A stretch of 64,000 nt of DNA from Larkinella terrae (GTDB taxonomy: Bacteria > Bacteroidota > Bacteroidia > Cytophagales > Spirosomataceae), in contig NZ_WJXZ01000007.1 of the NCBI RefSeq assembly GCF_009668025.1, positions 1 to 64,000 of the forward strand, read 5' to 3'. The position numbers and the translations under genes were made by a program. The notes under the pieces were generated by a model. That model saw only the letters and a list, made by a program, of their open reading frames with translations, searched no databases and was not told the origin of the DNA. Below are positions 4,147-30,342 of this stretch, piece after piece. Each line of letters starts with the position of its first letter. Positions within the stretch are counted from its first letter, which is position 1.

Positions 4147-5010
4147 TTAGAATAAAGCTTTAATGTACTGACCGGGGGTCAGGTTGTTGATGAGTTTAAA
4201 CTGGCGGTTAAAATTGGATAAATTCGTATAACCGCACGAAAAAGCAATCTGGCTAATGGGTAACTTCGATTCCTGCAACAGCCGACACGCGTGTTCGATG
4301 CGCACTTCGTTCAGCAGTTGCGAATACGTTTTTCGGGTATGCAGCCGGAAAAACCGGCAGAAAGCGCTGGGAGTCAAATGCGCCTGAGCGGCCACATCTT
4401 CCAGCGTGATCGGCGACGCGTACTGGTTCAGAATATAGGTAAAGACATTGTCCAGCCGCTGGTGATCGTCGGGTCGGCGGGGTTGCTCATAGGCCGTCAC
4501 CGACAGGAGTTCCCGGTTGGGATTGGCAGCCATGCGGTCCAAAACCGTCAGCAAAGTCATCAACTGCTCGAAGGGGCGGAGCGTATGCAGTTGCTCCATA
4601 TAGGTCGTGGTAGAAACCGGTTCGTTGAATCGAATCCGGACGCCGTGCCGGGCTTCCTGAAAAAGTTGATTGAGATGATTCAGTTCCGGCAGGCCGAAAA
4701 AAGATTCCTGCAAATGTTCAGGACGCAGGTATACGGAGTAAGAAAGCGACCGCTGGGTGGTTTTCGGGTCGAAATAAGCCGGATCGTTGCGGAATACATG
4801 CGGCAAGTTGGCGCCCAGGAGCAGGAGGTCGTAAGGCCGGAACCGATCGATGCGGTCGCCGACAACCTGGGTTCCCACGCTTTCCTTGATCAGGGTCAGT
4901 TGCAACTCAGGATGAAAATGCAGCCGGTCGTAAAAATGCGGGCCGTCGTCGACCTGCACCCGAAACGAGCGGTCATCTACGGTAGGTACCCGAAACAGCA
5001 GCGGTTTCAT
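4147..5010 (-). CDS. AraC family transcriptional regulator
   Basis: A 287-residue protein with an N-terminal cupin-like sensing domain (HFHPELQLTLI, residues about 28-40, is the usual ligand-pocket start) and a C-terminal double helix-turn-helix at about 190-285. The second helix-turn-helix ends in ISQIAFSCGYTNLSNFNRQFK, the AraC signature. It is divergent from the hydroxyproline operon (212 bp between start codons) and in an operon with DPP IV. The obvious inference is that it controls both directions in response to a product of proline-rich peptide breakdown; the ligand is not known. Confidence 0.92.
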   Translation of the reverse strand: MKPLLFRVPTVDDRSFRVQVDDGPHFYDRLHFHPELQLTLIKESVGTQVVGDRIDRFRPYDLLLLGANLPHVFRNDPAYFDPKTTQRSLSYSVYLRPEHLQESFFGLPELNHLNQLFQEARHGVRIRFNEPVSTTTYMEQLHTLRPFEQLMTLLTVLDRMAANPNRELLSVTAYEQPRRPDDHQRLDNVFTYILNQYASPITLEDVAAQAHLTPSAFCRFFRLHTRKTYSQLLNEVRIEHACRLLQESKLPISQIAFSCGYTNLSNFNRQFKLINNLTPGQYIKALF

Positions 5011-5222
5011 CAGGTCTGAGAAAAGTTAGCGATACGCAGTTGAACAAAGTAGTAATAAAACGAATAAGTGGTACACAATTAGTCGAATAAATGCATTGAA
5101 ATGACTAAACTGGCAAAAATAGTATTACTATCAATCAACTCCTGTGAAGTTGTCCATGCTTCTTTTTGCCAATTTTGTTTACCTGAGTCCTGACAATCAA
5201 CTCTGCTAAAATCCTGCATTTT
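5011..5222. promoter_or_regulatory. Divergent control region, AraC gene and hydroxyproline operon
   Basis: An AT-rich 212-bp region between divergent units. Visible structure: a 9-bp inverted pair TGGCAAAAA (5111-5119) and TTTTTGCCA (5163-5171), and a direct repeat CAATCAACTC at 5132-5141 and 5194-5203 spaced 62 bp apart. Either could be the AraC-type binding site. No exact TAnnTTTG box was found, so promoters are not placed. Confidence 0.45.
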
Positions 5223-6134
5223 ATGGCTATTAACGTAAACTGGAAAGGCGTTTATCCGGCGCTGCTCACGCCCTTCACGGCCGACGACGAACTTGATTTG
5301 CCGCTGTTCGCCAAGAACTTACACGCTCAGCTCGACGCGGGCGTTCACGGAATGATCATTGCCGGATCGCTGGGCGAGGTCAGTACGCTGAGCGGGTCGG
5401 AAAAACTGGCCCTGCTGGAAACCGCCCTGGAAACCACCAACGGCCGGGTGCCGGTGATCATGAACGTTGCCGAAGCGGTTACGAAGGATGCCGTTCGGGG
5501 AGCACGTGAAGCCGAAGCCGCCGGTGCGGATGGCCTGATGTTACTGCCGCCCATGCGGTATTTTGCCGATTCGCGCGAAACCGTCGCGTTTTTCAAAACC
5601 GTTGCGCAGGAAACGTCGCTGCCGGTCATGATTTACAACAATCCGGTCGACTACAAAATCATGACGACTGTGTCCATGTTTGAGGAACTGGCCGAACTGC
5701 CGAACATTCAGGCGGTCAAGGAATCGACCCGCGATTTGACCAACATTACCCGGATGCGGAATGCATTTGGCGATCGCTATCGCATTCTGGGGGGCGTTGA
5801 TACGCTGGCGCTGGAAGCGCAGCTGTCGGGGGCCGACGGCTGGGTGGCCGGTCTGGTCGATGCGTTTCCGCAGGAAACCGTTGCTATTTTTGAACTGGTC
5901 AACGCCGGACGGATTCAGGAAGCGCTTGCTATTTACCGCTGGTTTATGCCCTTGCTGGAGCTGGATATTCAGCCTAAACTGGTGCAATACATTAAGTTAG
6001 CCGCAGCCGCAACGGGAATTGGCTCGGAATACGTTCGGGCTCCGCGACTGACGCTGGTGGGCGAAGAACGGACGCGCGTACTGGCCGTCATCGAAGCTGC
6101 ACTGGCAACCCGGCCCGTTTTGCAAGCGGTTTAA
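5223..6134 (+). CDS. DapA-family aldolase/deaminase, probable hydroxyproline-pathway enzyme
   Basis: A 303-residue member of the dihydrodipicolinate synthase/N-acetylneuraminate lyase family. The Schiff-base lysine is Lys166 in IQAVKEST and the conserved tyrosine is Tyr138 in MIYNNP. The phosphate/carboxylate loop reads AGSLGEVSTLS rather than the GTTGE of true DapA. As first gene of an operon with a hydroxyproline epimerase and an amino-acid oxidase, it most likely acts as 1-pyrroline-4-hydroxy-2-carboxylate deaminase, giving 2,5-dioxopentanoate. A different keto-acid aldolase role cannot be excluded from sequence alone. ATG start; 25 bp before the next gene. Confidence 0.85.
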   Translation: MAINVNWKGVYPALLTPFTADDELDLPLFAKNLHAQLDAGVHGMIIAGSLGEVSTLSGSEKLALLETALETTNGRVPVIMNVAEAVTKDAVRGAREAEAAGADGLMLLPPMRYFADSRETVAFFKTVAQETSLPVMIYNNPVDYKIMTTVSMFEELAELPNIQAVKESTRDLTNITRMRNAFGDRYRILGGVDTLALEAQLSGADGWVAGLVDAFPQETVAIFELVNAGRIQEALAIYRWFMPLLELDIQPKLVQYIKLAAAATGIGSEYVRAPRLTLVGEERTRVLAVIEAALATRPVLQAV

Positions 6135-6159
6135 GCATGGTTTTCGGTTATACGGTTTT

Positions 6160-7161
6160 ATGAACTACAACTTTTATTGCATCGATGCCCACACCTGCGG
6201 CAATCCGGTTCGGGTGGTGACGGGCGGCAGCATTCCGCACCTGACGGGGGCGACGATGAGCGAAAAACGCCAGCATTTTCTGCGCGACTACGACTGGATT
6301 CGGAAGAGCCTGATGTTTGAACCGCGTGGGCACGATATGATGTCGGGCAGTATTTTGTACCCGCCCAGCGACCCCGCCAACGACGTGGGGGTGCTGTTTA
6401 TCGAAACCTCGGGCTGCCTGCCCATGTGCGGCCACGGAACCATCGGAACCGTGACGGTCGCGATTGAACAGGGGCTCGTGGTGCCCAAAACGCCGGGCGT
6501 CCTGAATCTGGAAGTGCCCGCCGGTCTGGTGCGGGTCGAATACCGGCAGGAGGGTCGCAAGGTGAAATCAGTGAAAATCACCAATATCAAATCGTATCTG
6601 GCGGCCGAAAACCTGACCGTCGACTGCCCGGACCTGGGAACTCTGACGGTCGATGTGGCTTACGGCGGTAATTTCTACGCCATCGTTGATCCGCAACCGA
6701 ATTTTCCCGGTTTGCAGCATTACAAAGCGGAGCAACTCATTGCCTGGGCGCGGGTAATGCGGCAGCGGATGAACGAGCAATATACATTTGTGCATCCCGA
6801 AAATCCGACCATCAACGGCTTGAGCCATATTTTGTGGACCGGCGAGCCACTGGCGGCTACTTCCACGGCCCGCAATGCGGTTTTTTACGGCGACAAAGCC
6901 ATTGACCGTTCGCCCTGCGGCACCGGAACCTCAGCCCGACTGGCGCAATGGTACGCCAAGGGCTGGTTAAAACCGGGTCAGGATTTTGTTCACGAAAGCA
7001 TCATCGGTTCCATTTTTACGGGCCGGATCGAGCAGGAAACCGAGTTGGCGGGAAAACCGGCCATTGTGCCGAGCATCGAAGGCTGGGCGATCATCCACGG
7101 TTTTAATCACATCATTCTGGACGAAGACGATCCGTACGTCCACGGTTTTCAGGTAATATGA
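6160..7161 (+). CDS. 4-hydroxyproline 2-epimerase (proline racemase family)
   Basis: A 333-residue enzyme that should convert trans-4-hydroxy-L-proline to cis-4-hydroxy-D-proline. Both catalytic cysteines are present: Cys90 in MCGHG and Cys253 in SPCGTGTSAR. This Cys/Cys pair marks racemases and epimerases; dehydratases of the family carry Thr or Ser in place of one. The pocket around DRSPCGTG fits a hydroxyproline epimerase better than a proline racemase, and the partner genes agree. Its TGA stop overlaps the ATG of the oxidase gene (ATGA), so the two are translationally coupled. Confidence 0.92.
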   Translation: MNYNFYCIDAHTCGNPVRVVTGGSIPHLTGATMSEKRQHFLRDYDWIRKSLMFEPRGHDMMSGSILYPPSDPANDVGVLFIETSGCLPMCGHGTIGTVTVAIEQGLVVPKTPGVLNLEVPAGLVRVEYRQEGRKVKSVKITNIKSYLAAENLTVDCPDLGTLTVDVAYGGNFYAIVDPQPNFPGLQHYKAEQLIAWARVMRQRMNEQYTFVHPENPTINGLSHILWTGEPLAATSTARNAVFYGDKAIDRSPCGTGTSARLAQWYAKGWLKPGQDFVHESIIGSIFTGRIEQETELAGKPAIVPSIEGWAIIHGFNHIILDEDDPYVHGFQVI

Positions 7162-8414
7162 AGCACATCGGGATAATTGGCGGAGGTGTAATTGGTTTAT
7201 TTTCAGCTTACTACCTCGACAAAGCGGGGTATAAAGTAACGGTTTTTGATCGAAACACGCTGACCGACGGCTGTTCGTTCGGGAATGCGGGCATGATTGT
7301 GCCGAGCCACATTATTCCGCTGGCGCAGCCGGGTATGGTGGCGAAAGGAATGCGGATGTTACTGAAGTCGACCAGTCCGTTTTACATCAAACCGCGCCTA
7401 AACGCCGACCTGTTGCGCTGGGGCTGGCTGTTCTACAAACATTCGACGCCCGAACATGTGGAGCGCTCGATTCCGGCGCTGCGCGACATCAGTTTGTTGA
7501 GTAAAAAATTGTACCAGGAACTGGCCGGATCCGGCGATTTATCGTTTGGCTGGCAGGAAGTCGGCTTGCTGATGTTGTATAAAAACGCGGCTACCGAACA
7601 TGAAATGACCGAAGAAGCGGACGTCGCCAACCTGGCCGGGATTGAAGCGCGGCAGTTGTCGGGTGCGCAGGTTCAGGATCTGGAGCCGGATGTCCGTGTG
7701 AATGTGCGGGGGGCGGTTTTTTATCCCGGCGACGCCCATCTGAGCCCCGGGCAGTTGATTCGCTCGCTGGTTACGTACCTGAAAAAGCGCGGAGTGACGC
7801 TGCTGGAACGGCAGGAGGTAAGCGGTTTTGGTCAGACTGGTTCGCGGATTACATCCGTGCGAACGGTTTCGGGCGAGCATTCCATCGACGAGCTGGTGAT
7901 TGCCGCCGGAGCCTGGTCGCCGGAACTGACGCGGTTGCTGGGCTTTCCGCTTTCGTTGCAGGGCGGAAAAGGGTACAGTTTTATGCTGCGAAATCAACGC
8001 CCGAATATCCGGGTTCCGGCCATTATGCTGGAAGCGCGGGCCACGGCCACGCCGATGGGTGCAGATCTGCGGTTTGCCGGGACCCTCGAAGTGGCTGGAA
8101 CGGATCTGTCGGTCAACATGAACCGCGTGCGGGGCATTGTCAATTCCATTCAAAACTATTACCCTGATATGCCCGCTGAATTGCCGGACGTGTCGAAAGT
8201 CTGGAGCGGTTTGCGGCCCTGCTCGCCCGACGGTTTGCCCTATCTGGGCCGGGTTTCGGGTTTTGAGAATCTAACGATGGCGACCGGGCACGGCATGATG
8301 GGCGTAAGTCTGGGACCGGCTTCGGGAAAATTAGTGGCGGATTGCATTGAAAATAAGACGCCGGAAATGGATTTAACTCCGTTCAATCCGAAGCGATTTG
8401 CGGCAAATTCCTGA
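7158..8414 (+). CDS. FAD-dependent D-amino acid oxidase/dehydrogenase (DadA type)
   Basis: A 418-residue flavoprotein with the Rossmann FAD motif IGGGVIGLFSAYYL at about residues 5-19 and the DAO-family C-terminal block WSGLRPCSPDGLPYLG followed by ATGHGMMGVSLGP. It would oxidise cis-4-hydroxy-D-proline, made by the preceding epimerase, to the pyrroline-hydroxycarboxylate used by the first gene of the operon. Start overlaps the epimerase stop by 4 bp. The final pathway enzyme (2,5-dioxopentanoate dehydrogenase) is not encoded next to it or elsewhere in the window. Confidence 0.9.
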   Translation: MKHIGIIGGGVIGLFSAYYLDKAGYKVTVFDRNTLTDGCSFGNAGMIVPSHIIPLAQPGMVAKGMRMLLKSTSPFYIKPRLNADLLRWGWLFYKHSTPEHVERSIPALRDISLLSKKLYQELAGSGDLSFGWQEVGLLMLYKNAATEHEMTEEADVANLAGIEARQLSGAQVQDLEPDVRVNVRGAVFYPGDAHLSPGQLIRSLVTYLKKRGVTLLERQEVSGFGQTGSRITSVRTVSGEHSIDELVIAAGAWSPELTRLLGFPLSLQGGKGYSFMLRNQRPNIRVPAIMLEARATATPMGADLRFAGTLEVAGTDLSVNMNRVRGIVNSIQNYYPDMPAELPDVSKVWSGLRPCSPDGLPYLGRVSGFENLTMATGHGMMGVSLGPASGKLVADCIENKTPEMDLTPFNPKRFAANS

Positions 8415-8608: not shown

Positions 8609-8929
8609 ATGAAAATCAGCCCGCCAGAAGTTGGCCGATATTATTACGTCGGAAATGAACCGACGCTTTTTACGGAAAAACTCCTGCAGGAAATCCTGCC
8701 GCATCACCGTCCCCAACCCATTCGGTTGACCAAGCAATGGTTGACCCTGTTCGGCTTTCGGCCGGATTCCGCCCGCCATTTCTGGTTTTTTCAGGATTTG
8801 AAACTGGTCCCCGGCCTGAATTGCTGGCTGTGCGTGAGCACCCGCCGGTATTTGCATTACGTGCATGAACTCCAGGAATGCTTTGCCGATATTTACCAAA
8901 CCGAACTGCCTCTCAAAACGCAGTCCTAA
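8609..8929 (+). CDS. Small conserved hypothetical protein
   Basis: A 106-residue basic/aromatic protein with no signal peptide or membrane segment. The first ten residues end in a short Tyr-Tyr-Tyr run. The middle LTKQWLTLFGFRPDS and the C-terminal YLHYVHELQECFADIYQTEL resemble small proteins common in Bacteroidota whose C-terminus ends in a hYVHELQNLYFALTG-like helix, often seen near phage or mobile genes; that resemblance is from memory. Function unknown. A clear promoter and palindromic operator precede it, so it is a real, regulated, monocistronic gene. Confidence 0.72.
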   Translation: MKISPPEVGRYYYVGNEPTLFTEKLLQEILPHHRPQPIRLTKQWLTLFGFRPDSARHFWFFQDLKLVPGLNCWLCVSTRRYLHYVHELQECFADIYQTELPLKTQS

Positions 8930-9395
8930 CCATTTCCAACAGCTCCCGGCGGTTTTAGCAGTTTTCCCGGTTTCCGGATAAAATGAAGGCTTTCTGATTC
9001 GTAAGTAGGTTTAGCACGATATTTGCGTATACCTGTTGTCTGATAATTAGGCACTGACCATCTACACCTCCCGCTTCCTTTCAAGAAAAATAGCTGTTGC
9101 TCACAACCGGTTATTCACGGGTATCATTCCAAGGAAACCGCCTGAAATCAGCGCCAGGGCGTTTTGTGGCATATGATTCCGCCAAGTTTTTAGCGCGTTG
9201 AATGCCATTGTCGGCATGTCTAAAGTGCCATTTCCCAGACCGCGTCCAATATTTTAAAGAAATTTTCGCATCCATAGACAAAAAGTTACCATTTAGTTTC
9301 ATTTAGTACACTTATTGCAGGAAACTACTTAGTTACATTCAATTCTTGCCACTTTAACTCCCACTGCACTACCATAACTCAATTGATATACACAA
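8930..9395. other. 466-bp intergenic region before the FIST operon
   Basis: No convincing gene. It contains TTGTCTGATAA at 9036-9046, the motif shared with other EPS units, and a direct repeat CATTTAGT at 9290-9297 and 9300-9307 (period 10 bp, one helical turn). A 63-codon minus-strand frame at 9111-9302 has no protein-like features. Confidence 0.5.
9036..9046. promoter_or_regulatory. TTGTCTGATAA motif, candidate shared operator
   Basis: Exact reverse complement of the TTATCAGACAA sites at 12634 and 30327. Lies 350 bp upstream of the FIST gene. Confidence 0.4.
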
Positions 9396-10535
9396 ATGAA
9401 ACTGAATCAATCTGTTTACAAAGATCAGGCGTGGAATTTTATATCGGAAACGCCGGGTTTTTTGGCTGATAATGTGCAGTTGGTACTGGCGTTCGGTGAA
9501 CGGTTTTTATTGGAACGATTTGATTTATACGACCAGCTTCGGGCGCGTTATCCGAATGCCGACATCGTCATTAATTCAACTTCCGGTGAAATTTACCTCG
9601 ATAAGGTGCACGATGATTCGATTATTGTGACGGCTATTGAGTTTGAAAAAACCGCTGTTCGGACGGTTCAAATCGATATTAGTAAACACACTGAAAGTTA
9701 CAAGGCGGGCGAGAAAATCGCGGAAGCCCTGGACGCACCGGATCTGTCAGCGTTGTTTTTGATTTCCGATGGCAGTTGGGTAAACGGGAGCGACCTGATC
9801 GAAGCGCTCAATCAACTGCTGAAACAGCCGGTTCCCGTATCGGGCGGTTTAGCCGGAGATGGCGCCCGGTTTGAACGGACCGTGGTGGGACTCAACCAGA
9901 ATCCGGCGGCCGGTAAAATTGTCGGCATCGGTTTTTACGGCCACGATCTGAAAGTCGGGCATGGCTCGATGGGCGGCTGGGATGTTTTCGGGCCGGAACG
10001 CGAAGTGACTAAGGCAACGTATAATGTTCTGTATCAGATCGATGACAAGCATGCGCTGGATTTATACAAGGAATATTTAGGGAAATACGCCGAAAGTTTA
10101 CCGTCGGCGGCCCTGCTGTTCCCGCTGTCGATGCGGACAACGGCCGAATCCGAACCGCTGGTAAGAACCATTCTGGCGATTGACGAGGAAACCAAAAGTA
10201 TGACCTTTGCGGGTGAAATGCCCGAAAAAGCGTTGGTGCGGTTTATGAAGGCCAATTTTGACCGACTCATCGATGCCTCGGCTACGGCGGCCAATACGTC
10301 CATGAACCAACTGCATTTTGCGCCCGAACTGGCGATCCTGGTTAGCTGTATCGGCCGGAAACTGGTATTGGGGCAGCGGACTGAAGAAGAAGTGGAAGCG
10401 GCCCGGGAAGTATTCGGGAACAATGCGGTGATGACCGGTTTTTATTCGTACGGCGAGATTTCGCCTTTACAATCCAGCGCCCGGTGCGAACTGCACAACC
10501 AAACGATGACCGTAACGGTCTTTTCTGAGAATTGA
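9396..10535 (+). CDS. FIST domain sensory protein
   Basis: A 379-residue soluble protein with a FIST-N domain (about 25-215; landmarks INSTSGEIY, SVSGGLAGDG-like SGGLAGDGARF) and FIST-C domain (about 220-375; ending NNAVMTGFYSYGEISP). FIST proteins are thought to bind small ligands, perhaps amino acids, and feed signals to kinases. The stop is 3 bp from the start of a hybrid histidine kinase that has no input domain of its own beyond a coiled coil, so this protein is the likely sensor for that kinase. ATG start; no signal peptide, hence cytoplasmic. Confidence 0.88.
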   Translation: MKLNQSVYKDQAWNFISETPGFLADNVQLVLAFGERFLLERFDLYDQLRARYPNADIVINSTSGEIYLDKVHDDSIIVTAIEFEKTAVRTVQIDISKHTESYKAGEKIAEALDAPDLSALFLISDGSWVNGSDLIEALNQLLKQPVPVSGGLAGDGARFERTVVGLNQNPAAGKIVGIGFYGHDLKVGHGSMGGWDVFGPEREVTKATYNVLYQIDDKHALDLYKEYLGKYAESLPSAALLFPLSMRTTAESEPLVRTILAIDEETKSMTFAGEMPEKALVRFMKANFDRLIDASATAANTSMNQLHFAPELAILVSCIGRKLVLGQRTEEEVEAAREVFGNNAVMTGFYSYGEISPLQSSARCELHNQTMTVTVFSEN

Positions 10536-10538
10536 TCC

Positions 10539-12062
10539 ATGGAAACAACTGACCTTCATAAACTGCTTGCCCGACAAATCAACAAGCATCTGACGGACGA
10601 ATGCCTGCAACACGAACGGTTTCAGCATTTTGTAAAAGCCGTCAACGACTCTTACCGGAACTTCGATCGGGACAAGGAGTTATTCGAACATTCAGCGCTT
10701 CTGAACGAAAAAGAGTATGCGACGATCAATCTCAAGCTGAAGGAGGAAATCAGTCAGCGTCGGCAGTCGGAAGAAAAACTGATCGAAGCCATCAAATCGA
10801 TGGAAATTCCGGGCGATGATGAAATGCCGGTTTTCGGACCCGAAAACCTGGTTGCGCTGGTCGATTTTCTGCAAAAGCAGATTGAAAACCGCAAGCAGAT
10901 CGAGAACGAACTGCGGACGGCTAAAGAAATTGCCGAAAATGCAACCCTGGCCAAATCGGATTTTCTGTCCATGATGAGCCACGAAATCCGGACGCCCCTC
11001 AACGGTATTGTCGGCATGACCTACCTGATGAGCCAGGAAGAGGTGTCACCAACACTGGCGGAAAATCTCAAAACCCTGCAGTTTTCGATTGAACACCTGC
11101 AGGCCCTGATCAACGACATTCTGGATTTCAGCAAGATTGAAGCGGGCAAAGTTGATCTGGAAGAAGCTAGTTTTGACTTTAAACACCTGGTTTCCAATAT
11201 CAAACGGGCACATCAGTTCAAAGCGGAGGAAAACGGCACCCGGATCAAACTGATGGTGGACGACGACATTCCCGATTCGCTGCTGGGCGATTCGCTGCGG
11301 ATTGGTCAGGTATTGTCCAACCTGGTTTCCAACGCCATCAAGTTTACCAAAAAAGGTACGATTACCATCGAATTGTCGCTGCTCCATAAGGATGACGAAG
11401 TGGCCTCGATTTACGTTTCGGTGCAGGATACCGGGATCGGCATTGCGCCCGAAAAGCAGGAGGCTATTTTCGAAATGTTTACGCAGGCCAATTCCGCAAC
11501 CACCCGGCAATTTGGTGGAACCGGACTTGGACTGGTGATTACCAAGCGGTTACTGGAACTGCACGGCAGCAAGATCGAAGTTGAAAGTGAGGAAGGAAAA
11601 GGTGCCAAGTTTTCTTTCAAGCTTGATTTACGCATCAGTTCCGGCGTCAAGCAGTCGTACGCTCTGATGGATACCATCAACGACCAGACGCTGAAAGGGG
11701 TCAGGATTTTGCTGGTGGAGGATTATCCCGTGAATGTAAAGGTCGCGCTCAAGTTCCTGAGCCGCTGGGGAGTTGTGGTCGATGTAGCTGAAAATGGTCA
11801 GATTGGCCTCGAAAAATTCCTGGCGGGTTCTTACGACCTCATTCTGATGGACTTGCAAATGCCGGTGATGGACGGATATACGTCGACGCAGCAGATCCGG
11901 GAAACCGATACGAAAATTCCGGTGATTGCGCTAACGGCTTCGGCAACCTACAGCAACCGCGACCGGGCGATTAACGCCGGGATCAACGATTACGTAACGA
12001 AACCGTTCAATCCCAACGACTTGTTTCAGAAGATTGCCAAATATTGCCACCGGCTGAATTAA
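10539..12062 (+). CDS. Soluble hybrid histidine kinase with C-terminal receiver
   Basis: A 507-residue cytoplasmic kinase. Residues 1-135 are helical/coiled coil without membrane segments. HisKA contains SHEIRTPLNG with phosphorylatable His148. The ATPase domain has the N box NAIKF, G1 DTGIGI and G2 GTGLGL. The receiver (about 390-505) has VEDYPVN, acceptor Asp438 in LILMDLQMP and the KPF lysine. The HPt gene follows directly and the FIST gene precedes by 3 bp, giving a compact phosphorelay: FIST input, HisKA, receiver, separate HPt, then probably the response regulator at 12804. Confidence 0.95.
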   Translation: METTDLHKLLARQINKHLTDECLQHERFQHFVKAVNDSYRNFDRDKELFEHSALLNEKEYATINLKLKEEISQRRQSEEKLIEAIKSMEIPGDDEMPVFGPENLVALVDFLQKQIENRKQIENELRTAKEIAENATLAKSDFLSMMSHEIRTPLNGIVGMTYLMSQEEVSPTLAENLKTLQFSIEHLQALINDILDFSKIEAGKVDLEEASFDFKHLVSNIKRAHQFKAEENGTRIKLMVDDDIPDSLLGDSLRIGQVLSNLVSNAIKFTKKGTITIELSLLHKDDEVASIYVSVQDTGIGIAPEKQEAIFEMFTQANSATTRQFGGTGLGLVITKRLLELHGSKIEVESEEGKGAKFSFKLDLRISSGVKQSYALMDTINDQTLKGVRILLVEDYPVNVKVALKFLSRWGVVVDVAENGQIGLEKFLAGSYDLILMDLQMPVMDGYTSTQQIRETDTKIPVIALTASATYSNRDRAINAGINDYVTKPFNPNDLFQKIAKYCHRLN

Positions 12063-12118
12063 AAACCGCCGAAAAAACCACACCTGATTTCCCATCCACC
12101 CTTTATTTTTCAATAGGT

Positions 12119-12493
12119 ATGGAACATCCCGCCGACAATGGTATCGATTTTTTAGATCGTGAACGCTTGGTGCGGCTCTATGAAGACGATACCGAAATGC
12201 TCATTTCGGCAATCGAGACTTTTCTGGATGAAGTAGTGATCAGCTTTTCGGAACTGGAAAACCTGACCGGGTCGCAGAACTGGGAGGGTTTGAGCGAACT
12301 AACGCACCAACTGAGGCCCTGGCTGGGTATGGTGGGACTGACCAGTCTGGAAACCAGGCTGTGGGAAATTGAAATGCTGGCCAGGGAAAATCCGAACGCC
12401 GAAATACTCATGATTTCCTGTACGGATTTCAACCGAAACCTGAGCAAAATGACTCCGATCCTGCAACTTGAATTGAAAGAATTAACCAAATAG
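12119..12493 (+). CDS. HPt phosphotransfer protein
   Basis: A 124-residue four-helix HPt protein. The phosphotransfer residue is His63 in LTHQLRPWLGMVG, matching the HPt pattern AHxLKGxxxxxG. An upstream TTG at 12044 in the same frame would overlap the kinase gene and add 25 residues of disordered sequence; the ATG at 12119 starts right at the domain and is preferred. It completes the relay of the preceding hybrid kinase, which lacks its own HPt. Partner receivers could be those at 12804, 13249 or 36617. Confidence 0.88.
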   Translation: MEHPADNGIDFLDRERLVRLYEDDTEMLISAIETFLDEVVISFSELENLTGSQNWEGLSELTHQLRPWLGMVGLTSLETRLWEIEMLARENPNAEILMISCTDFNRNLSKMTPILQLELKELTK

Positions 12494-12633
12494 CACTCGA
12501 TTTAGATTGAATAAAAATATGCAGATAACAATGCTTCAAATGTTCTGATAATCAGATATAGAATTATTAAATATTAGTTAAATAAGTTCATTTTCAAGCT
12601 AAATGGCTCGTTTTTTGTGAATATTAGTTATAT

Positions 12634-12644
12634 TTATCAGACAA
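12634..12644. promoter_or_regulatory. TTATCAGACAA motif, candidate shared operator
   Basis: Identical 11-mer at 30327 and, inverted, at 9036. Lies 160 bp upstream of the response regulator. Confidence 0.4.
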
Positions 12645-12728
12645 TAATTAAATTAGATAGGATTGTAGTACGGTTTTTGTAGTTGCTTCAATAAGGGTAG
12701 CGCGCATGATACTTGCTACGAACAAATA

Positions 12729-12774
12729 GCTGGGTTTGATGAAACTGAATACCCACCGTATCAAACCCGGCTTT
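12729..12774 (+). terminator. Terminator-like hairpin, possible attenuator
   Basis: A 12-bp stem (GCTGGGTTTGAT / ATCAAACCCGGC, one G-U pair) with a 19-base loop is followed by TTTT. It is 236 bp past the HPt stop but only 30 bp before the response regulator ATG, too close for a promoter to fit comfortably between. It may therefore act as an attenuator in the leader of the regulator/sugar transferase unit. Confidence 0.5.
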
Positions 12775-12803
12775 TGAATGTTTAAATAGTTACAATTCAT
12801 TTT

Positions 12804-13214
12804 ATGGAAAACCAATACCATGTTCTTGTTGTAGAAGATGATACGTACATTCGTAAAGTTCTTCGCCATACTCTGAAAGCTGAATTTGTAATCACAACGC
12901 TGAATAACGGGATTGAAGCGATGGATTGGTTGGAAGCGGGAAATCCTGTCGATATTATTATCACCGACTTGCAAATGCCGTACCTGAGCGGCCAGGACCT
13001 GATCAAAACCATCCGGGCCAGTTCGTTGTTGCGTCAGGTTCCGATCATCGTATTGTCCACCTTCACCGATAGTGCTACCAAGATTGCTTGTCTGGAGCAA
13101 GGCGCTGATGACTATATGATTAAGCCATTCAACCCGATGGAGGTAAGGGCCAAAATCAACGCGATTCTCCGCCGGAGTGGTGCCACTACACCCTCGTCTT
13201 CCACCGGAAACTGA
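12804..13214 (+). CDS. Single-domain response regulator
   Basis: A 136-residue stand-alone receiver. All key residues are present: acidic pair in VVEDD, acceptor Asp55 in IITDLQMP, Ser85/Thr region in IVLSTF and Lys107 in MIKPF. There is no output domain; the last ten residues are a Ser/Thr-rich tail. It is the natural phosphate acceptor for the HPt protein encoded just upstream. The next gene starts 34 bp downstream and carries a degenerate receiver fused to a sugar transferase, suggesting that signalling acts by protein-protein contact on polysaccharide synthesis rather than on DNA. Confidence 0.93.
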   Translation: MENQYHVLVVEDDTYIRKVLRHTLKAEFVITTLNNGIEAMDWLEAGNPVDIIITDLQMPYLSGQDLIKTIRASSLLRQVPIIVLSTFTDSATKIACLEQGADDYMIKPFNPMEVRAKINAILRRSGATTPSSSTGN

Positions 13215-13248
13215 CCATCTTTCTGATTCTTCCTAGCTCTCGATCATC

Positions 13249-14433
13249 ATGATGACGGCTTTAGCAAACGGAACAACTTATCGGGTTTTATACGTTGAAG
13301 ATGACCCGCAAATGGCCGCGACTTTTAATCGGGCGTTTGGCGAAACCGCTTCGATTACGATTGTAACCAGTTTGGAAGAAGCTCTCTTTTGTCTGGATGC
13401 CGACCCGTCGATTGATCTCGTGGTTTACAATGACCGCCTGAACAGTGCTTCTTTTCTGAACAGGATCAAGGACAAGCCGAATTCCGGGCGGTTTTCAACC
13501 ATTTTGCTGACTGGCGAAGGCTCCATTGACCTGGGTGCCGAGCCATACCACGGGCGGGTTACCGATGTTTTTCATTACGGCTATTCCGAAGCGGCTTTTC
13601 AAACGCGCCTGTCGTATCTGATTCTGAAAAAGCAGTATGCGGAGAAAAAGCAGGTAGTCGAAAGCGAAGGCGGGGAGCACAAACACACGAAGGTGCGAAT
13701 GCCCATTGGAAAGCGGATTTTCGACATTACGCTGTCGTTTTTCCTGCTGCTGATGATTTCACCCATTCTGCTGGTGGTGGCTATTCTGGTTAAACTCGAT
13801 TCGAAAGGTCCGATTTTTTACGGTTCCAAGCGCGTGGGCATGGGCTACAAAGTGTTCAACATGTACAAGTTCCGGACGATGCGGACGGATGCCGACCAGA
13901 TGCTGGCCAGCATGGCATCGAAGAATATGTACAACGTGAAAAAAGCGGAAGAACCGGTCGACCAGATTTGCGACGAATGCCAGCTGGTCGGTTCCTGCCA
14001 GCGTCCGCTTTTTCTGGACGACAAGCAGGTGTGCGAAAAAGTGTATTTCCGCAACGAGAAGGCGAAAGCGATGTTTTCGAAATTCAAGGAAGATCCCCGC
14101 GTGACGCGACTGGGCAAAATTCTGCGTAATACCAGTATTGATGAGCTTCCCCAGTTTTATAACATTCTCCGGGGCGATATGTCGTTCGTTGGCAACCGGC
14201 CGCTGCCGCCTTACGAAGCCGAGAAACTGACTGCTTCGGGATACGCCCGGCGGTTTGCAGCTCCGGCCGGTCTGACGGGTCTGTGGCAGGTGACCAAGCG
14301 GGGCGGAGCCGCCGTTTCGGATCAGGAACGCATTCAACTCGACGTGCTTTATGCCAAAAAATACTCCTTCCGGACCGATTTAATGATTGTAATACGAACA
14401 CTGAAAGCGGTATGGCAAAAGGAGAACGTGTAG
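13249..14433 (+). CDS. Degenerate receiver fused to polyprenyl-phosphate sugar-1-phosphate transferase
   Basis: A 394-residue fusion. Residues about 8-125 have the receiver fold pattern (VLYVEDDP at the acidic pocket), but the acceptor position reads LVVYN with Asn61, followed by Asp62, and the KPF lysine is replaced (VFHYGYS). Residues about 145-390 are a bacterial sugar transferase of the WcaJ/PglC superfamily: membrane hairpin LSFFLLLMISPILLVVAILV, then KRVGMGYKVFNMYKFRTM and the LRNTSIDELPQFYNIL and GLTGLWQV blocks. An insertion carries four cysteines (241, 244, 250, 262; CxxC-x5-C-x11-C), a possible metal site known in related Bacteroidota proteins. It should start repeat-unit assembly by loading the first sugar-phosphate on undecaprenyl phosphate. 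The last 22 bp overlap the next gene. Confidence 0.93.
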   Translation: MMTALANGTTYRVLYVEDDPQMAATFNRAFGETASITIVTSLEEALFCLDADPSIDLVVYNDRLNSASFLNRIKDKPNSGRFSTILLTGEGSIDLGAEPYHGRVTDVFHYGYSEAAFQTRLSYLILKKQYAEKKQVVESEGGEHKHTKVRMPIGKRIFDITLSFFLLLMISPILLVVAILVKLDSKGPIFYGSKRVGMGYKVFNMYKFRTMRTDADQMLASMASKNMYNVKKAEEPVDQICDECQLVGSCQRPLFLDDKQVCEKVYFRNEKAKAMFSKFKEDPRVTRLGKILRNTSIDELPQFYNILRGDMSFVGNRPLPPYEAEKLTASGYARRFAAPAGLTGLWQVTKRGGAAVSDQERIQLDVLYAKKYSFRTDLMIVIRTLKAVWQKENV

Positions 14434-15365
14434 ACAGCGCACCGCTAATTTCGCTGATTACAATCAATTACAACCAGGCAGTGGTGACCTGCCAGTTGCT
14501 GGAATCGACCCGGCGGTTAAAATACCCGCGTTTTGAAGTTATCGTGGTTGATAACGCGTCCGTTGAAGATCCGACCGATCTCATCATGAGCGGCAATTAT
14601 CCCAACGTGAAAGTCGTCGTCAGCCCGGTCAATCTCGGGTTTTCGGGCGGCAACAACCTCGGAATGCAACATGCCAGCGGTGACTACTTTTTTTTCCTGA
14701 ACAACGACACCGAGGTGACGCCGGATCTGTTGCATCAACTGCTGGAGCCTTTCCAAACCAATCCGAAAATCGGGATTACCTGCCCCAAAATTCGCTATTA
14801 CGATCACCCGACCGTCATTCAGTACGCCGGTTATTATCCATTGAACCGGTATACGGGCCGCACCTGGTCAATTGGCCTGGGCGAAACCGATCGCGGTCAG
14901 CACGACAAATCGGGACTCACCAATTTTGCCCACGGCGCTGCCATGATGGCCAGCCGCCGGGCGGTTGAGATAGGAGGGGCGATGGACGAATCGTTCTTTT
15001 TGTATTACGAAGAACTGGACTGGTCGATGCAGATTCAGCGGGCCGGTTTTCAGATTTATTACCAGGCTTCGGCCCTGATTTACCACAAGGAATCGATCAG
15101 CGTGGGTAAAACCAATCCCATGAAGGTTTATTACCACACGCGAAACCGCTTATTGTTCATGCGGAGAAATGTCAGCGGTTTTCCGTTGTTTTTCTTCGTC
15201 CTGTATTACTTCTGTTTTGCGCTCACCAAAGCGGCAATCGTTTATGCCGTTAAACGACAAACGGCGTATCTCGTCGCGCTGAAAAATGCCGTCCTCTGGC
15301 ATTTTACGAATAAGATTCACCGACCGGAAAAAGAAGTTTTCCCGCCCGTGATTGCGGGTGTTTAA
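14412..15365 (+). CDS. GT2 family glycosyltransferase (rhamnosyltransferase-like)
   Basis: A 317-residue GT-A enzyme. Residues about 12-120 show ISLITINYN, VVDNASVED and the metal-binding FLNNDTEVTPD; FFLYYEELDWSMQIQ is the usual acceptor-side ED motif. A hydrophobic stretch near 255-280 may dock it to the membrane. The ATG at 14412 overlaps the sugar transferase gene by 22 bp; a longer upstream frame reads through that gene and is not used. It probably adds an early sugar to the lipid-linked repeat unit. Confidence 0.9.
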   Translation: MAKGERVDSAPLISLITINYNQAVVTCQLLESTRRLKYPRFEVIVVDNASVEDPTDLIMSGNYPNVKVVVSPVNLGFSGGNNLGMQHASGDYFFFLNNDTEVTPDLLHQLLEPFQTNPKIGITCPKIRYYDHPTVIQYAGYYPLNRYTGRTWSIGLGETDRGQHDKSGLTNFAHGAAMMASRRAVEIGGAMDESFFLYYEELDWSMQIQRAGFQIYYQASALIYHKESISVGKTNPMKVYYHTRNRLLFMRRNVSGFPLFFFVLYYFCFALTKAAIVYAVKRQTAYLVALKNAVLWHFTNKIHRPEKEVFPPVIAGV

Positions 15366-15377
15366 CGACTCTTTTTT

Positions 15378-16577
15378 ATGGAAATCGTATTGGCAGCCTG
15401 TGGCTGTATCGTCCTTTATACGTACTTCGGATACGCGTTGATTGTATGGATTCTGATTCGGATTCGGGGGCAGCGACCGGTTTTGAAGACCGACACGGCT
15501 TTTATGCCCGACGTAACGTTGATTATTCCGGCTTACAACGAGAGGGCTTTCCTGCCGCTCAAAGTGGCCAACTCGTTGGGTCAAACGTATTCTCCCGATC
15601 GGATTCAGTTTTTATTCGTCACCGAAGGATCGACGGACGGTTCTGCTGAATTTCTGCTTTCTGAGTATGGCTCAAGAGTAAAAATTCTGGGGGGCACGGA
15701 GCGCCTGGGCAAAGTAGCCGCCATGAACCGGGCCATGCAGCAGGTAACCACGCCACTGGCTATTTTCACTGATGCCAACACGATCCTGAATACGCAGGCG
15801 GTTGAAAAAATTGTCAGTCATTTTCGGGACCCGGAAGTGGGAGCCGTAGCGGGCGAAAAGCGGATTCTGACCAATGCCAGCGAGTCGGCGGCCGGTTCGG
15901 GCGAGGGGCTCTACTGGAAATACGAATCCCTGCTTAAACAACTCGATTCGGAATTGTACACCATTGTGGGGGCCGCCGGTGAATTATTTGCCATTCGGAC
16001 GGAACTATACGAACCGGTTGAAACAGATACCATTCTCGACGATTTTGTCATTTCCCTGCGAATTGCCGGACAAGGATACCGGGTGGCTTATGAGCCGGAA
16101 GCTTTCGCCATGGAACGCCCTTCGTTCTCGATTGTTGACGAACAGAAGCGGAAAATACGGATTGCCGCGGGCGGTTTTCAGTCGATGGTGCGTCTCAAAT
16201 ACCTGCTGAATCCGTTTCGGTATGGCTGGCTCACCTTCGAGTACGTTTCGCACCGGGTGATGCGATGGGCGCTGGTGCCGTTTTGTCTGCCACTGATTCT
16301 GCTCGCGAATGCGTACCTGGCCATCGAAGCTTTTTCGTCGCCCTCTCCCTGGGCACACGGCTGGTCGGCCCTATTTATTCTCCAGTGCCTTTTTTACACT
16401 GCCGCTTGGGTGGGCTACGGGTTAGAGAAAAAGCGGTTAAAATGGGCAGCGGTTTTTATCCCTTTTTACTTTACCTTCATGAATGCGTGCATTCTGGCGG
16501 GACTGGCGCGGTATTTGAAAGGCGCTCAGTCCGGAACCTGGGAAAAAGTCCGCCGGGCCGATGAGATGGGCATTTGA
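15378..16577 (+). CDS. Membrane GT2 glycosyltransferase with altered nucleotide-binding motif
   Basis: A 399-residue processive-type GT2 with one N-terminal membrane segment (about 3-25) and three or four C-terminal ones (about 295-385). The GT-A core has IIPAYNE, FTDANT, GEKRI, ILDDFVISLRI and a QKRKIRIAAGG motif in the QxxRW position. Where the family (and the close paralogue at 37292) has VDDGSTDG, this protein has VTEGSTDG, so the first aspartate that normally contacts the nucleotide is missing. It may still work with Glu, use a different donor, or be a non-catalytic partner. Twelve bp follow the previous gene; same operon. Confidence 0.9.
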   Translation: MEIVLAACGCIVLYTYFGYALIVWILIRIRGQRPVLKTDTAFMPDVTLIIPAYNERAFLPLKVANSLGQTYSPDRIQFLFVTEGSTDGSAEFLLSEYGSRVKILGGTERLGKVAAMNRAMQQVTTPLAIFTDANTILNTQAVEKIVSHFRDPEVGAVAGEKRILTNASESAAGSGEGLYWKYESLLKQLDSELYTIVGAAGELFAIRTELYEPVETDTILDDFVISLRIAGQGYRVAYEPEAFAMERPSFSIVDEQKRKIRIAAGGFQSMVRLKYLLNPFRYGWLTFEYVSHRVMRWALVPFCLPLILLANAYLAIEAFSSPSPWAHGWSALFILQCLFYTAAWVGYGLEKKRLKWAAVFIPFYFTFMNACILAGLARYLKGAQSGTWEKVRRADEMGI

Positions 16578-17701: not shown

Positions 17702-20700
17702 ATGAAACAAAAATTACTTCTCTGTACCTTATTGATTGCATCTTTTATCGTTTTTATAGGTGTTGCCGAACCACTTGAAAAGGGATCTTTTCTAGATAGC
17801 TATTCCAGTTTACTGGCTGCCCGAAAAACTCAGTTTTATGGTATTTCGCTAAATGCGCTGACTAACTTCAGAGCGCTGCCGGGAAAAATTGAAGCCGAAA
17901 GTTACGATGCCATGAGCGGTGTCAATACGGAAAACACGTCGGATACGGGCGGAGGACTGAACGTGGGCTGGATTGAAATGAATGACTGGATGGATTACAA
18001 CGTCAACGTTCCAACCGCCGGCATTTATACCCTGAAATTTCGTCTGGCGACGGGCCAGCCGGACGGCAAACTGGAACTGCGCAGTTCGACCGGCGTGGTA
18101 CTGGGAACGCTGAACGTTCCCCAGAGCGGTGGCTGGCAGGGATGGACCACGGTCAATATGATCGCTACCTTACCCGCCGGTGACCAGATTTTGCGCGTTT
18201 TCGCCAAACAGGGCGCCTGGAATTTCAACTGGTTTGAAGTGGCAGCCGCCAGAGCCGTCCCGGCTAAAATTGAAGCCGAAAGTTATGATTTAGCCAGCGA
18301 TGTTAAACCCGAAACCACCTCGGATACGGGCGGAGGAGAAGATGTGGGCTGGATCGATGATAACGACTGGATGGATTACAATGTCCGGGTGCCTTTCAAC
18401 GGTTCGTATAAATTCAATTTCAGAGTAGCCCGGAGTTACGGCGGTGACGGTAAAATCCAGATCAAAACCGCTTCGGGTACAGTATTGAGTACAGTGACGG
18501 TGAGTCCGACGGGCGGCTGGCAAACCTGGGCAACCGTCAGCGGAACCTGTAACTTGACTGCCGGTGATCAGATCATTCGGATTAACGCTTTGCTGGGTGG
18601 CTGGAATTTCAACTGGTTTGAAGTCATCAGTCTAACCCCGCCACCGACGCAGTCCACCATCACGTTCGCGGCTCTGCCCGACAAAACCGTGGGCGATGCA
18701 CCTTTTAATCTGGTGGCTACCAGCAACAATACCCAGACACCGATCACGTTTGCCTCCTCCAATCCGTCCATTGTTTCGGTTTCCAACAGCACGGGTAGCT
18801 GGAAAGCAACGGTCGTTGCAGCCGGAACGGCGAATATTACCGCTTCACAAGCCGGGAACAGCAATTACACGGCGGCCGCTAATGTAGTTCGCACGCAGGT
18901 CATTCAGGCCGCGCCGATTACACCACCCCCGTCGACAACGGGCACGCTGGGTACCAAAATTACGATCGATCCCAAAAGATGGTATCAGCTCAACAACATC
19001 ACGTACGGAATGGACGGTTTGTTCGACGGCGTAACCAACGTGGTTGTGAATACCGGTTATGGAAAAATTCTGGAAAACTTTGATGCCTATTACCCGTTGC
19101 TACCCGGTGAGCAGTTCAATTTGAAAGGGGTTAAATTTTACGATGGTGAAGGGACGATGACCGATAAACCCATGACCCTGTCGGTCATCACCGACCAGTG
19201 GCAGCGGATTCCTGTCGCGACCTTTACCGGACAGGAATACAATAACTGGGTGGGACCGGACCCCAATCGGCAGGCTACTGGTGATGCTAAATTTTTGCTG
19301 AATACGCCCATCACCAACGCCCGTTATCTGGTCATCAACGCCTGGTGGGGTTATCCGACCGAAATCGAATTGTACGGTTCGTATACACCCCCAACCAATC
19401 CGGTAACACCGGCTCCCCTGAAATCCATCAAACTGAAGGATGTCATGCACATCAATGCTTTCGAGTGGGACGTTGAGGACGCGCAGTCGTCGCTGGTCGA
19501 TGAGTCGAAACTGACGGCGCTCAAAACGTTTACGGGCATTCGGCATTACATGGACTGGGAAAAACTGGAGTCGACCGAAGGCGGTTACACGTTTAACCCG
19601 ACCCACAGTGGCAGCTGGAACTATGACTTATTGTACGAACGCCTGAAGGCGGAAGGGGTCGAGGTGCTGGCGTGTTTGAAAACCATTCCACCGTGGTTGC
19701 AGGCCACGTATCCGGATGGCGAGCGCGATTCGGAAAACGTACCGGTTCGCTTCGGGAAAGACTTTTCAAGCCCTCTTTCGTACATCGAGCAGGCCAAAGT
19801 TGCCTTCCAGTACATCGGTCGCTACGGTTACAATCCCAACGTCGATCCGTCGTTGATGAAGGTCAATTCGGCCCAGCGCTGGAACGGAGACGGTATCAAT
19901 ACTGTAAAAATCGGCCTGGGTTACATCAAGTATATTGAGTGCGACAATGAGCGGGATAAATGGTGGAAAGGCCGCAAAGGTTACCAAACCGCTTACGAAT
20001 ACGCTGCGAACCTGTCCGCTTTTTACGACGGACACAAGAATACGATGGGACCGGGCGTGGGCGTGAAAAATGCCGATCCGAATGTGAAAGTGGTAATGGC
20101 CGGTTTGGCCGGAGCAACCACCGGTGCGGATTACGTCCGGGCAATGGTGGAATGGTGCCGCCAATACCGGGGCTACAAAGCAGATGGCTCGGTGAACCTG
20201 TGCTGGGATGTGATCAACTACCACCTGTATTCGGACAACGCGAACTCCCTGCAAAGCGGTACGTCGACGCGCGGAGCAGCTCCTGAAGTCGCCATTACGG
20301 CCGACGTCGCCAAGGGTTATGTTCAGATGGCGTACCAGTACGTGAAGGATATGCCGGTCTGGATGAGCGAAGCCGGTTACGATGTGAACCAGGGAAGTCC
20401 GTTGAAAGCCATTGCGATCGGTAACAAGTCCGTATTGCAAACCCAGGCCGACTGGATTCTGCGGACGTCGTTACTGTATGCCCGCTCGGGTGTTGAAAAA
20501 GTATTCCTGTATCAGGTTTACGACGATTATGCGCCCAGCCCCGGCCAGTTTGCGTCGATGGGTTTAATCAATACCGACAAAACCCGCAAACCCGCCGGCG
20601 ATTTCATTTATCAGACTAAAAAGGCGTTTGGCGAATTTGTTTACAAGCAAACGCTGAGCAACAATCCCATCGTGGATCGGTACGAACTGAACGGAAAATC

Positions 20701-21229
20701 AGCCTACATGCTGGTGGTTCCCGACGAAATTGGCCGGACGGCTTCGTACACACTGGATCTGGGAACGGCAACGCAGGCCAAAGTGTACACGCCGAAAGCG
20801 GGCAGCAACGCAATGGATATGCAACTGGTGAGCACCACGCAGGGGAAGCTGACCATGACCGTAACGGAAACACCGGTTTTTGTAACGTCGGCCGATGTAG
20901 TGGTCGATAACGGCGGGAGCGCCCGGGTTGGTGTTGATAAGAATCTGGGATCGGCGGAAAGCACTCAACTGCACAATGCGATCAAGGTGTATCCGAACCC
21001 AACGGTTGATTACATCAGCATTGATCTGCAAAACGAAAACGAGAATAAGCTGGAAGTAAAACTGTTTAGCGCGACGCTTGGAACGCTGCACAAAGAAATA
21101 AATATCGACAAGAATGAAGCGGCTTTTACGGGAAAAATCGACGTTTCTTCGTTGCCAACCGGCGTTTATATTCTCGAAATCAAGCAGGGCAACGACCGCG
21201 CTTTCCGCAAAATCATTAAGATGAAATAG
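17702..21229 (+). CDS. Secreted multidomain glycoside hydrolase (CBM6 x2, TIM barrel, T9SS type A)
   Basis: A 1175-residue exported protein. Order: signal peptide (about 1-22); two tandem CBM6 modules (about 60-190 and 195-315), each with IEAESYD, DTGGG, WMDYNV and WNFNWFEV; a bacterial Ig-like/linker segment (about 320-405); a beta-sandwich (about 415-570); a clan GH-A-like TIM barrel (about 580-990); and a T9SS type A sorting domain (about 1095-1175, VYPNPTVDYI... GVYILEI). Likely acid/base is Glu750 in IECDNERD and nucleophile Glu890 in VWMSEAGYD; the GH family is not assigned. Its position inside the EPS island suggests it trims or remodels the polymer outside the cell. A strong terminator follows. 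Confidence 0.88.
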   Translation: MKQKLLLCTLLIASFIVFIGVAEPLEKGSFLDSYSSLLAARKTQFYGISLNALTNFRALPGKIEAESYDAMSGVNTENTSDTGGGLNVGWIEMNDWMDYNVNVPTAGIYTLKFRLATGQPDGKLELRSSTGVVLGTLNVPQSGGWQGWTTVNMIATLPAGDQILRVFAKQGAWNFNWFEVAAARAVPAKIEAESYDLASDVKPETTSDTGGGEDVGWIDDNDWMDYNVRVPFNGSYKFNFRVARSYGGDGKIQIKTASGTVLSTVTVSPTGGWQTWATVSGTCNLTAGDQIIRINALLGGWNFNWFEVISLTPPPTQSTITFAALPDKTVGDAPFNLVATSNNTQTPITFASSNPSIVSVSNSTGSWKATVVAAGTANITASQAGNSNYTAAANVVRTQVIQAAPITPPPSTTGTLGTKITIDPKRWYQLNNITYGMDGLFDGVTNVVVNTGYGKILENFDAYYPLLPGEQFNLKGVKFYDGEGTMTDKPMTLSVITDQWQRIPVATFTGQEYNNWVGPDPNRQATGDAKFLLNTPITNARYLVINAWWGYPTEIELYGSYTPPTNPVTPAPLKSIKLKDVMHINAFEWDVEDAQSSLVDESKLTALKTFTGIRHYMDWEKLESTEGGYTFNPTHSGSWNYDLLYERLKAEGVEVLACLKTIPPWLQATYPDGERDSENVPVRFGKDFSSPLSYIEQAKVAFQYIGRYGYNPNVDPSLMKVNSAQRWNGDGINTVKIGLGYIKYIECDNERDKWWKGRKGYQTAYEYAANLSAFYDGHKNTMGPGVGVKNADPNVKVVMAGLAGATTGADYVRAMVEWCRQYRGYKADGSVNLCWDVINYHLYSDNANSLQSGTSTRGAAPEVAITADVAKGYVQMAYQYVKDMPVWMSEAGYDVNQGSPLKAIAIGNKSVLQTQADWILRTSLLYARSGVEKVFLYQVYDDYAPSPGQFASMGLINTDKTRKPAGDFIYQTKKAFGEFVYKQTLSNNPIVDRYELNGKSAYMLVVPDEIGRTASYTLDLGTATQAKVYTPKAGSNAMDMQLVSTTQGKLTMTVTETPVFVTSADVVVDNGGSARVGVDKNLGSAESTQLHNAIKVYPNPTVDYISIDLQNENENKLEVKLFSATLGTLHKEINIDKNEAAFTGKIDVSSLPTGVYILEIKQGNDRAFRKIIKMK

Positions 21230-30326: not shown

Positions 30327-30342
30327 TTATCAGACAAATAGG
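30327..30342. promoter_or_regulatory. TTATCAGACAAATAGG, candidate shared operator
   Basis: Combines the exact 11-mer of 12634 (and inverted 9036) with the 12-mer of 30017. Best single instance of the motif. Confidence 0.45.

Follow-up and report, generated by a model that had tools for sequence, protein, structure and literature searches.

The window analyzed here is a stretch of 64,000 nucleotides of the soil bacterium Larkinella terrae (assembly GCF_009668025.1, contig NZ_WJXZ01000007.1, positions 1 to 64,000 of the forward strand), and this text deals with a run of five genes at 9396-14433 that encode a FIST protein, a hybrid histidine kinase (HK), a histidine phosphotransfer (HPt) protein, a single-domain response regulator (SDRR) and a phosphoglycosyl transferase (PGT) that carries a fused receiver-like domain. 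We put at about even chances the reading that a phosphorelay of these proteins gates, at the post-translational level, the first step of an exopolysaccharide (EPS) pathway. This reading is supported because the order FIST-hybrid kinase-HPt, then SDRR-PGT, is kept in 9/9 Larkinella genomes, the SDRR is constant, FIST linkage exceeds expectation, relay genes recur as neighbors, and the EpsW-EpsZ and NosP-NahK-HptB systems offer precedents. Its direct basis is gene content, residues, folds, conservation and recurrent linkage. An earlier reading of the same DNA, the original prediction, had proposed phosphorelay control of EPS initiation and a check of gene order elsewhere. The order is conserved, and a functional link between FIST-kinase-HPt and SDRR-PGT is supported by linkage and controls, whereas the fused domain cannot be kept as a phospho-acceptor.

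The five open reading frames (ORFs), all on the plus strand, have the identities given to them originally (sensor, hybrid kinase, HPt, receiver, receiver-like PGT), as confirmed by the ORF list, Pfam and a fold model. The first product, P0001 (9396..10535, 379 amino acids), matches the Pfam families FIST with 155.2 bits and FIST_C with 128 bits and is a putative small-ligand sensor of NosP-like kind. Three nucleotides separate its gene from that of the kinase P0002 (10539..12062, 507 amino acids), which contains HisKA (His148), HATPase_c and Response_reg (Asp438) domains; its N-terminal part of about 125 amino acids has no Pfam match, and no membrane sensor domain was found by Pfam, with no separate transmembrane prediction being made. 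The HPt protein P0003 (12119..12493, 124 amino acids) starts from the ATG at 12119, 56 nt past the kinase stop, and scores 25.8 bits on Pfam Hpt against a cut-off of 24.6, as measured on the longer 12044 form. Its phospho-His63, numbered from the same ATG, is present in 23/23 aligned stand-alone HPts, as expected of an HPt protein, and His148 and Asp438 of the kinase are conserved in 35/35 aligned FIST-adjacent kinases; all three residues had been named in advance and are in place. P0004 (12804..13214, 136 amino acids, Pfam Response_reg) is one receiver (REC) with the acidic pair E11 and D12, the acceptor D55, S85 and the switch Lys K107 and no output domain, which makes it an SDRR, and its best PDB matches are receivers of the OmpR/PhoB type. 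After a further 34 nt follows the fusion gene, whose product P0005 (13249..14433) matches Pfam Bac_transf with 201.1 bits.

The SDRR-PGT pair is the constant part of the system. In the survey, where L-numbers denote loci and G-numbers genomes, a lone receiver gene lies directly upstream of the PGT gene, on the same strand, in 80/80 loci of Larkinella's family, which are a subset of a longer list of matches. A phylum-wide draw of 296 genomes yielded 28 new loci with DNA, one of them in Larkinella's family, and an SDRR gene precedes the PGT gene in 22 of these, comprising 18/18 with an N-terminal extension and 4/10 small PGTs. Because the SDRR also precedes small PGTs without a fused domain (L176 and L181-L183), this domain is unnecessary for the pairing, and direct contact of the SDRR with the PGT catalytic domain would be possible as well. 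The controls were 20 lower-scoring PGT rows of the phylum, picked by hand and mostly from other families, and none of them (0/20) has an SDRR, HPt or FIST gene beside it. They were compared with the family and with 20 wider loci chosen among loci already showing an upstream receiver, plus the second locus of G349; 19/20 SDRRs of these wider loci carry the acceptor Asp. An HPt gene occurs within 6 kb in 13/80 family loci, 8/20 wider loci and 0/20 controls, and a FIST gene in 19/80, 1/20 and 0/20, respectively. A kinase of any kind is found within the same distance in 32/80, 8/20 and 6/20, and kinase proximity was dropped as evidence in view of the control figure.

The N-terminal part of P0005 (residues 12-139, 13282..13665) has no Pfam match. 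Nevertheless, residues 11-130 model as a receiver, with a predicted local distance difference test (pLDDT) mostly of 85-97, and Foldseek aligns the model to receiver domains with a TMt of about 0.7-0.8; helix alpha4 is missing from it. Asn61 occupies the place of the acceptor Asp and Tyr110 that of the switch Lys, and the domain is, as judged from these residues, a pseudo-receiver without a phospho-acceptor, which would serve at most for docking or gating. The receiver-like domain of the original prediction is thus upheld as a fold, but not as a phosphate acceptor. Because both the acceptor Asp and the switch Lys are lacking, the SDRR would be the last station of a relay.

The C-terminal part (residues 153-394, 13705..14430) aligns to the PglC fold with a TMt of 0.76-0.80 and contains Asp298-Glu299, which are present in 79/79 family loci and correspond to the catalytic Asp-Glu dyad of PglC. 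These features place the enzyme among the small monotopic PGTs (PglC-like) and outside the large WbaP/EpsZ type, as its N-terminus models as a receiver and has no transmembrane bundle with DUF. Among the matches listed, its best ones are from members of Larkinella, with 87% identity to L. rosea. An alignment of the family loci further revealed an insert with four cysteines, C241-x2-C-x5-C-x11-C262 (13969..14034), invariant in 79/79 loci and absent, as read by eye, from the six other PGTs of the genome; it is possibly a metal or Fe-S site. The four cysteines also occur in the distant small PGTs L175, L178, L179 and L184 and are absent from L173, L177 and L181-L183. In Spirosoma telluris (L026, 10004-11172) the receiver-PGT fusion is split into two ORFs, by a frame break or a sequencing error.

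Comparison of the separate and the fused receivers disclosed a complementary pattern of acceptors. The fused domains were placed on the profile of the separate receivers (88/96 placed) and the residues were counted from the beta3 Asp. Of the 80 family loci, 54 have Asp in the separate receiver and a non-Asp residue in the fused domain, 17 have Glu in the former and Asp in the latter, one has Asp in both and eight in neither, and in 71/80 exactly one receiver of the pair keeps the acceptor Asp. This placement ruled out the notion that the fused domain never keeps the Asp, which is present in 18/80 loci, 17 of them in a clade with Glu in the separate receiver. That clade comprises the second PGT loci L127-L146, mostly of Spirosoma, where separate Glu and fused Asp are combined in 17/18 loci, and the roles of the live and the dead receiver seem, from these residues, to have been exchanged in it; since these 17 pairs group as a single clade on the tree, the exchange would amount to one or a few events. 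All 25 Glu rows of the separate receiver also have a change at the second position of the acidic pair, and the fused domains that carry Asp have no switch Lys. The Fisher test on the complementary acceptors (p 1.7e-10) takes no account of relatedness and is not counted as proof, the 17 being one clade. Both partners have further conserved positions, namely D106 (80/80), R/K120 (78/80) and Y123 (80/80) in the fused domain and E113 (78/80), K117 (79/80) and R124 (78/80) in the separate receiver, which presumably correspond to interface residues of the PhoB-like alpha4-beta5-alpha5 face. A PhoB-like pairing of the two receivers through this face was set aside as a mere lead, since the model of the fused domain has no alpha4.

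The input beside the pair, by contrast with the pair itself, changes. Of the 92 family genomes that have both genes, 21 have FIST no more than 10 kb from the PGT gene, against 0.36 expected under uniform placement, which is more than chance (G113 is included through a FIST edge fragment, and L135 was labeled FIST by hand, since an edge fragment of its FIST is all that is present). The linkage is spread over six genera of the family in differing arrangements, and in a quick tree built from 99 PGTs, with long branches flagged and L026 left out, FIST linkage changes at least 6 times and HPt linkage at least 9 times. In seven Spirosoma genomes the FIST-kinase-HPt genes lie 4-7 kb from the PGT, beside the clade with exchanged acceptors. 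In G052 and G110 the FIST-kinase genes stand divergently beside SDRR-PGT and are followed by an H-NOX gene with HK-REC-HPt, and L086 and L134 hold FIST-HK, H-NOX, HK-REC-HPt and SDRR-PGT all together. Beyond the family, L214 (G336, far off in the phylum) has genes for FIST and PAS-HK-REC-HPt divergent beside SDRR-PGT. An H-NOX gene and HNOBA-PAS-HK-REC-HPt are near the pair in L195 (same strand) and L200 (4.5 kb away), HNOBA-HK-REC-HPt adjoins it in L201 and L202 (the Hpt of L201 being detected by our own profile and by none in Pfam at 1e-4), and in L196-L198 HK-REC-HPt, SDRR and PGT all run in one direction. Several loci of Runella and Spirosoma and one of Arsenicibacter have a three-receiver hybrid kinase, two genes and a REC-HK gene before the pair. 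According to Pfam, CHASE3-GAF-HK, CheR, CheB and REC-HK precede SDRR-PGT in L021 (3043-9039), and L018, L022-L026, L058 and L062 are arranged similarly, as judged by our own profiles and gene sizes.

Both halves of the arrangement have published precedents. In Myxococcus xanthus, EpsW~P, a phosphorylated single-domain receiver, activates the PGT EpsZ, and that system shares with the Larkinella set the lack of a DNA-binding output (PMC12802240). EpsZ is a large monotopic PGT (monoPGT) with a transmembrane bundle and DUF, and EpsW takes its input from the Dif chemosensory kinase (PMC12802240). The Larkinella PGT, by contrast, is a small one to which a degenerate receiver is fused, and the Larkinella SDRR has a FIST-hybrid kinase-HPt relay as its neighbor. 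On the input side, FIST proteins that sense nitric oxide (NO) with heme and steer a neighboring kinase are known as NosP (PMC12570481), and in Pseudomonas aeruginosa NosP-NahK passes phosphate to HptB (PMC11784011). The NosP-NahK-HptB and NosP-NosK-NosR systems resemble the locus in having a FIST gene beside a soluble kinase, with phosphate there going to an HPt (HptB) in the control of biofilm, but their outputs are RsmA signaling or proteins of cyclic di-GMP (c-di-GMP), whereas the Larkinella HPt adjoins SDRR-PGT (PMC11784011, PMC12570481). The H-NOX-HNOBA systems are approached by L195, L200, L086 and L134, which have H-NOX and an HPt-bearing hybrid kinase near SDRR-PGT, unlike the nine Larkinella genomes, which have no H-NOX gene. 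Because the NCBIfam cut-offs were missed, P0001, P0002, P0004 and P0005 were not classed as NosP, NahK, EpsW and EpsZ: P0002 scored 172.8 bits on near_NosP_CTERM (cut-off 400) and 146.8 bits on NahK (1500), P0004 64.4 bits on EpsW (200), and P0005 253.3 bits on EPS_sugtrans (295.55) and 158.5 bits on EpsZ (800).

The occurrence of receiver domains in small monoPGTs is mentioned in the discussion of PMC12802240, and P0005 likewise combines a receiver and a small monoPGT in one chain; that mention, in the part of the paper accessible, is silent on an obligatory separate receiver gene, on lost acceptors and on a four-cysteine insert. The literature searched, which did not reach most subscription papers, showed no Bacteroidota PGT linked to a relay with FIST or H-NOX and no separate-plus-fused receiver pair with complementary acceptors. 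The original prediction had called the system one not recognized as described. This holds for the joining of the two halves, although not for the halves themselves, since EpsW-EpsZ (PMC12802240) and NosP-NahK-HptB (PMC11784011) are published; what is new, as far as the accessible sources go, is the joining, the receiver pair and the recurrence in Bacteroidota.

In the mechanism proposed, the cytosolic FIST protein would bind a small ligand, most likely NO through heme, and the ligand-bound form would alter autophosphorylation of the cytosolic hybrid kinase, as suggested by NosP-NahK. Phosphate could then travel from His148 to Asp438, to His63 of the HPt protein and to Asp55 of the SDRR, a route whose chemistry the residues permit and whose direction we infer. 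The constant adjacency and the complementary acceptors suggest that SDRR~P would dock on the degenerate receiver at the N-terminus of the PGT, and the docked SDRR might, following EpsW-EpsZ, raise or lower the loading of the lipid carrier with sugar phosphate. If the analogy with NosP-NahK extends to the sign, NO would act as an inhibitor of the kinase and thereby lessen EPS initiation.

Several observations weigh against this mechanism. The relay steps, the docking and the effect on EPS are predictions from sequence and analogy. The linked genomes are mostly Larkinella (9) and Spirosoma (7), and their counts are not independent; 48/80 family loci have no kinase within 6 kb and 60/80 no FIST gene within 7 kb; G048 has FIST-kinase before SDRR-PGT and no HPt gene there; and the seven Spirosoma loci linked to FIST combine Glu in the SDRR with a fused domain that keeps Asp and lacks the switch Lys. 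In L160, also of Spirosoma, FIST-HK-HPt adjoins, according to Pfam, a LytTR regulator instead. The absence of FIST from those 60 loci that have the pair, the REC-LytTR neighbor in L160, the receiver genes of comparable length that stand next to FIST-HK-HPt in L147, L161 and L162, and the two probable transcription units of the window would all suit an explanation that we consider unlikely, though not negligibly so, namely that SDRR-PGT is a true regulatory unit fed by other kinases and that FIST-kinase-HPt is a mere neighbor serving some other regulator, such as LytTR. This explanation is opposed by the linkage, which holds in 9/9 Larkinella genomes and recurs, variously arranged, in six family genera and in a single family far away, and by its frequency (21/92 vs 0.36 expected). 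It is improbable, in turn, that the SDRR leaves the PGT alone and serves as a phosphate sink or has some other EPS protein as its target, with the fused domain serving only dimerization or stability: the SDRR before the small PGTs L176 and L181-L183, which have no fused domain, agrees with it, but the adjacency in 80/80 loci, the complementary acceptors in 71/80 and the direct action of EpsW on EpsZ (PMC12802240) speak against it.

The nature of the signal is a further point at which the proposed mechanism meets a competitor. P0001 has the FIST_N and FIST_C domains and the adjoining kinase gene without a Pfam membrane sensor domain that are expected of NosP, and it is filed, from its sequence, as NosP-like only, since it reaches 41.7 bits on the NCBIfam NosP equivalog model, far under the cut-off of 450. 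Its AlphaFold2 model (pLDDT 90.9) comes closest, among solved structures, to FBXO22 and to ring-handling enzymes of the Toblerone fold, chorismatase and barbiturase among them, and no heme protein is among the solved fold matches; no His is invariant in the 21 family FIST proteins, H367 alone reaching 90%. The NosP score, the fold neighbors and the missing His count against NO, and favor the alternative that the relay is right and FIST binds another small molecule, which is a serious possibility at somewhat less than even chances. It must be set against the proximity of FIST to H-NOX genes, which lie within 10 kb of each other in 13/39 genomes vs 0.19 expected, although 5/13 of these pairs involve FIST matches that are weak or fragmentary (G047, G050, G094, G132) or a broken H-NOX (G053). 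Because of this proximity NO is the likeliest signal for FIST, through heme, by analogy; it is also favored by the H-NOX or HNOBA kinases next to the SDRR-PGT pair in L195, L200, L201, L202 and L086, and by the presence of such neighbors beyond Larkinella's family. Only 1/36 family genomes has H-NOX itself within 10 kb of the PGT, and therefore within the family the argument for NO rests on FIST near H-NOX; the nine Larkinella genomes, that of the window included, contain no H-NOX gene. The putative ligand sensor of the original prediction is thereby sharpened to a NosP-like protein, probably for NO, with the NosP cut-off missed. The company of FIST in L159 (5679-11402) also speaks for NO: genes for H-NOX, HK-REC-HPt, FIST and HK-REC follow one another there on the same strand, and the cluster thus contains two NO-type sensors.

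Around these genes, a gap of 310 bp (12494..12803) separates HPt from SDRR and contains a block, 12632-12680, conserved in an alignment of seven Larkinella sequences. Because this gap with its conserved block splits the five genes, the locus most likely forms two transcription units, FIST-kinase-HPt and SDRR-PGT onward, and the block is probably, from its sequence, the promoter of the second. The strict Bacteroidota promoter consensus TTTG-N16..24-TANNTTTG has no match at the locus, the window having 4 matches vs 2.35 expected. Exact copies of TTATCAGACAA occur at 9036-9046 (minus strand), 12634-12644 (plus) and 30327-30337 (plus), with 23 in the genome vs 1 for the reversed control; a regulon based on TTATCAGACAA was dropped, as the 23 genome sites show no extended consensus. 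Behind the PGT gene two GT2 glycosyltransferase genes are tightly packed, both on the plus strand, the first (14412..15365) overlapping its end by 22 nt, with the start codon chosen by hand, and the second (15378..16577) following after 12 nt. Farther along the window are genes for a flippase-like protein (25494-26930), a Wzy_C protein (34634-36100) and an outer membrane efflux protein, besides further glycosyltransferases, a content that fits an EPS locus of the Wzx/Wzy kind. Also downstream of EPS genes, 17702-21229 encodes a protein of 1175 amino acids that contains two CBM6 stretches and bears a tail for type IX secretion. On the other side, 8609-8929 is an ORF of 106 amino acids without a Pfam or NCBIfam match, and most Larkinella loci have an ORF of 105-106 amino acids at that position. 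Genes for an AraC-type regulator, a DHDPS-family protein, a proline-racemase-family protein and an FAD amino-acid oxidase lie at 4147-8414, a set that may form a hydroxyproline catabolic cluster.

A wider reading, which we hold only tentatively, is that two unrelated kinds of NO sensor, NosP-like FIST and H-NOX, may have been recruited repeatedly in Bacteroidota to one output, an SDRR that would switch the EPS-starting PGT via a fused dead receiver and would do so without transcription or c-di-GMP, with the two receivers swapped in one paralogous clade and the four-cysteine site perhaps a second, metal or Fe-S, input. If the proposed gating is true, it would join FIST/H-NOX sensing, through an HPt relay, to receiver control of the first polysaccharide step, which consumes the lipid carrier, and would carry the EpsW-EpsZ principle beyond the myxobacteria into many Bacteroidota. 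The control of biofilm polymers by NO in Bacteroidota would then become testable, and the complementary live and dead receivers (71/80 loci) provide a clean mutational handle. The cell may, in this way, switch slime-making directly, and not through gene expression.

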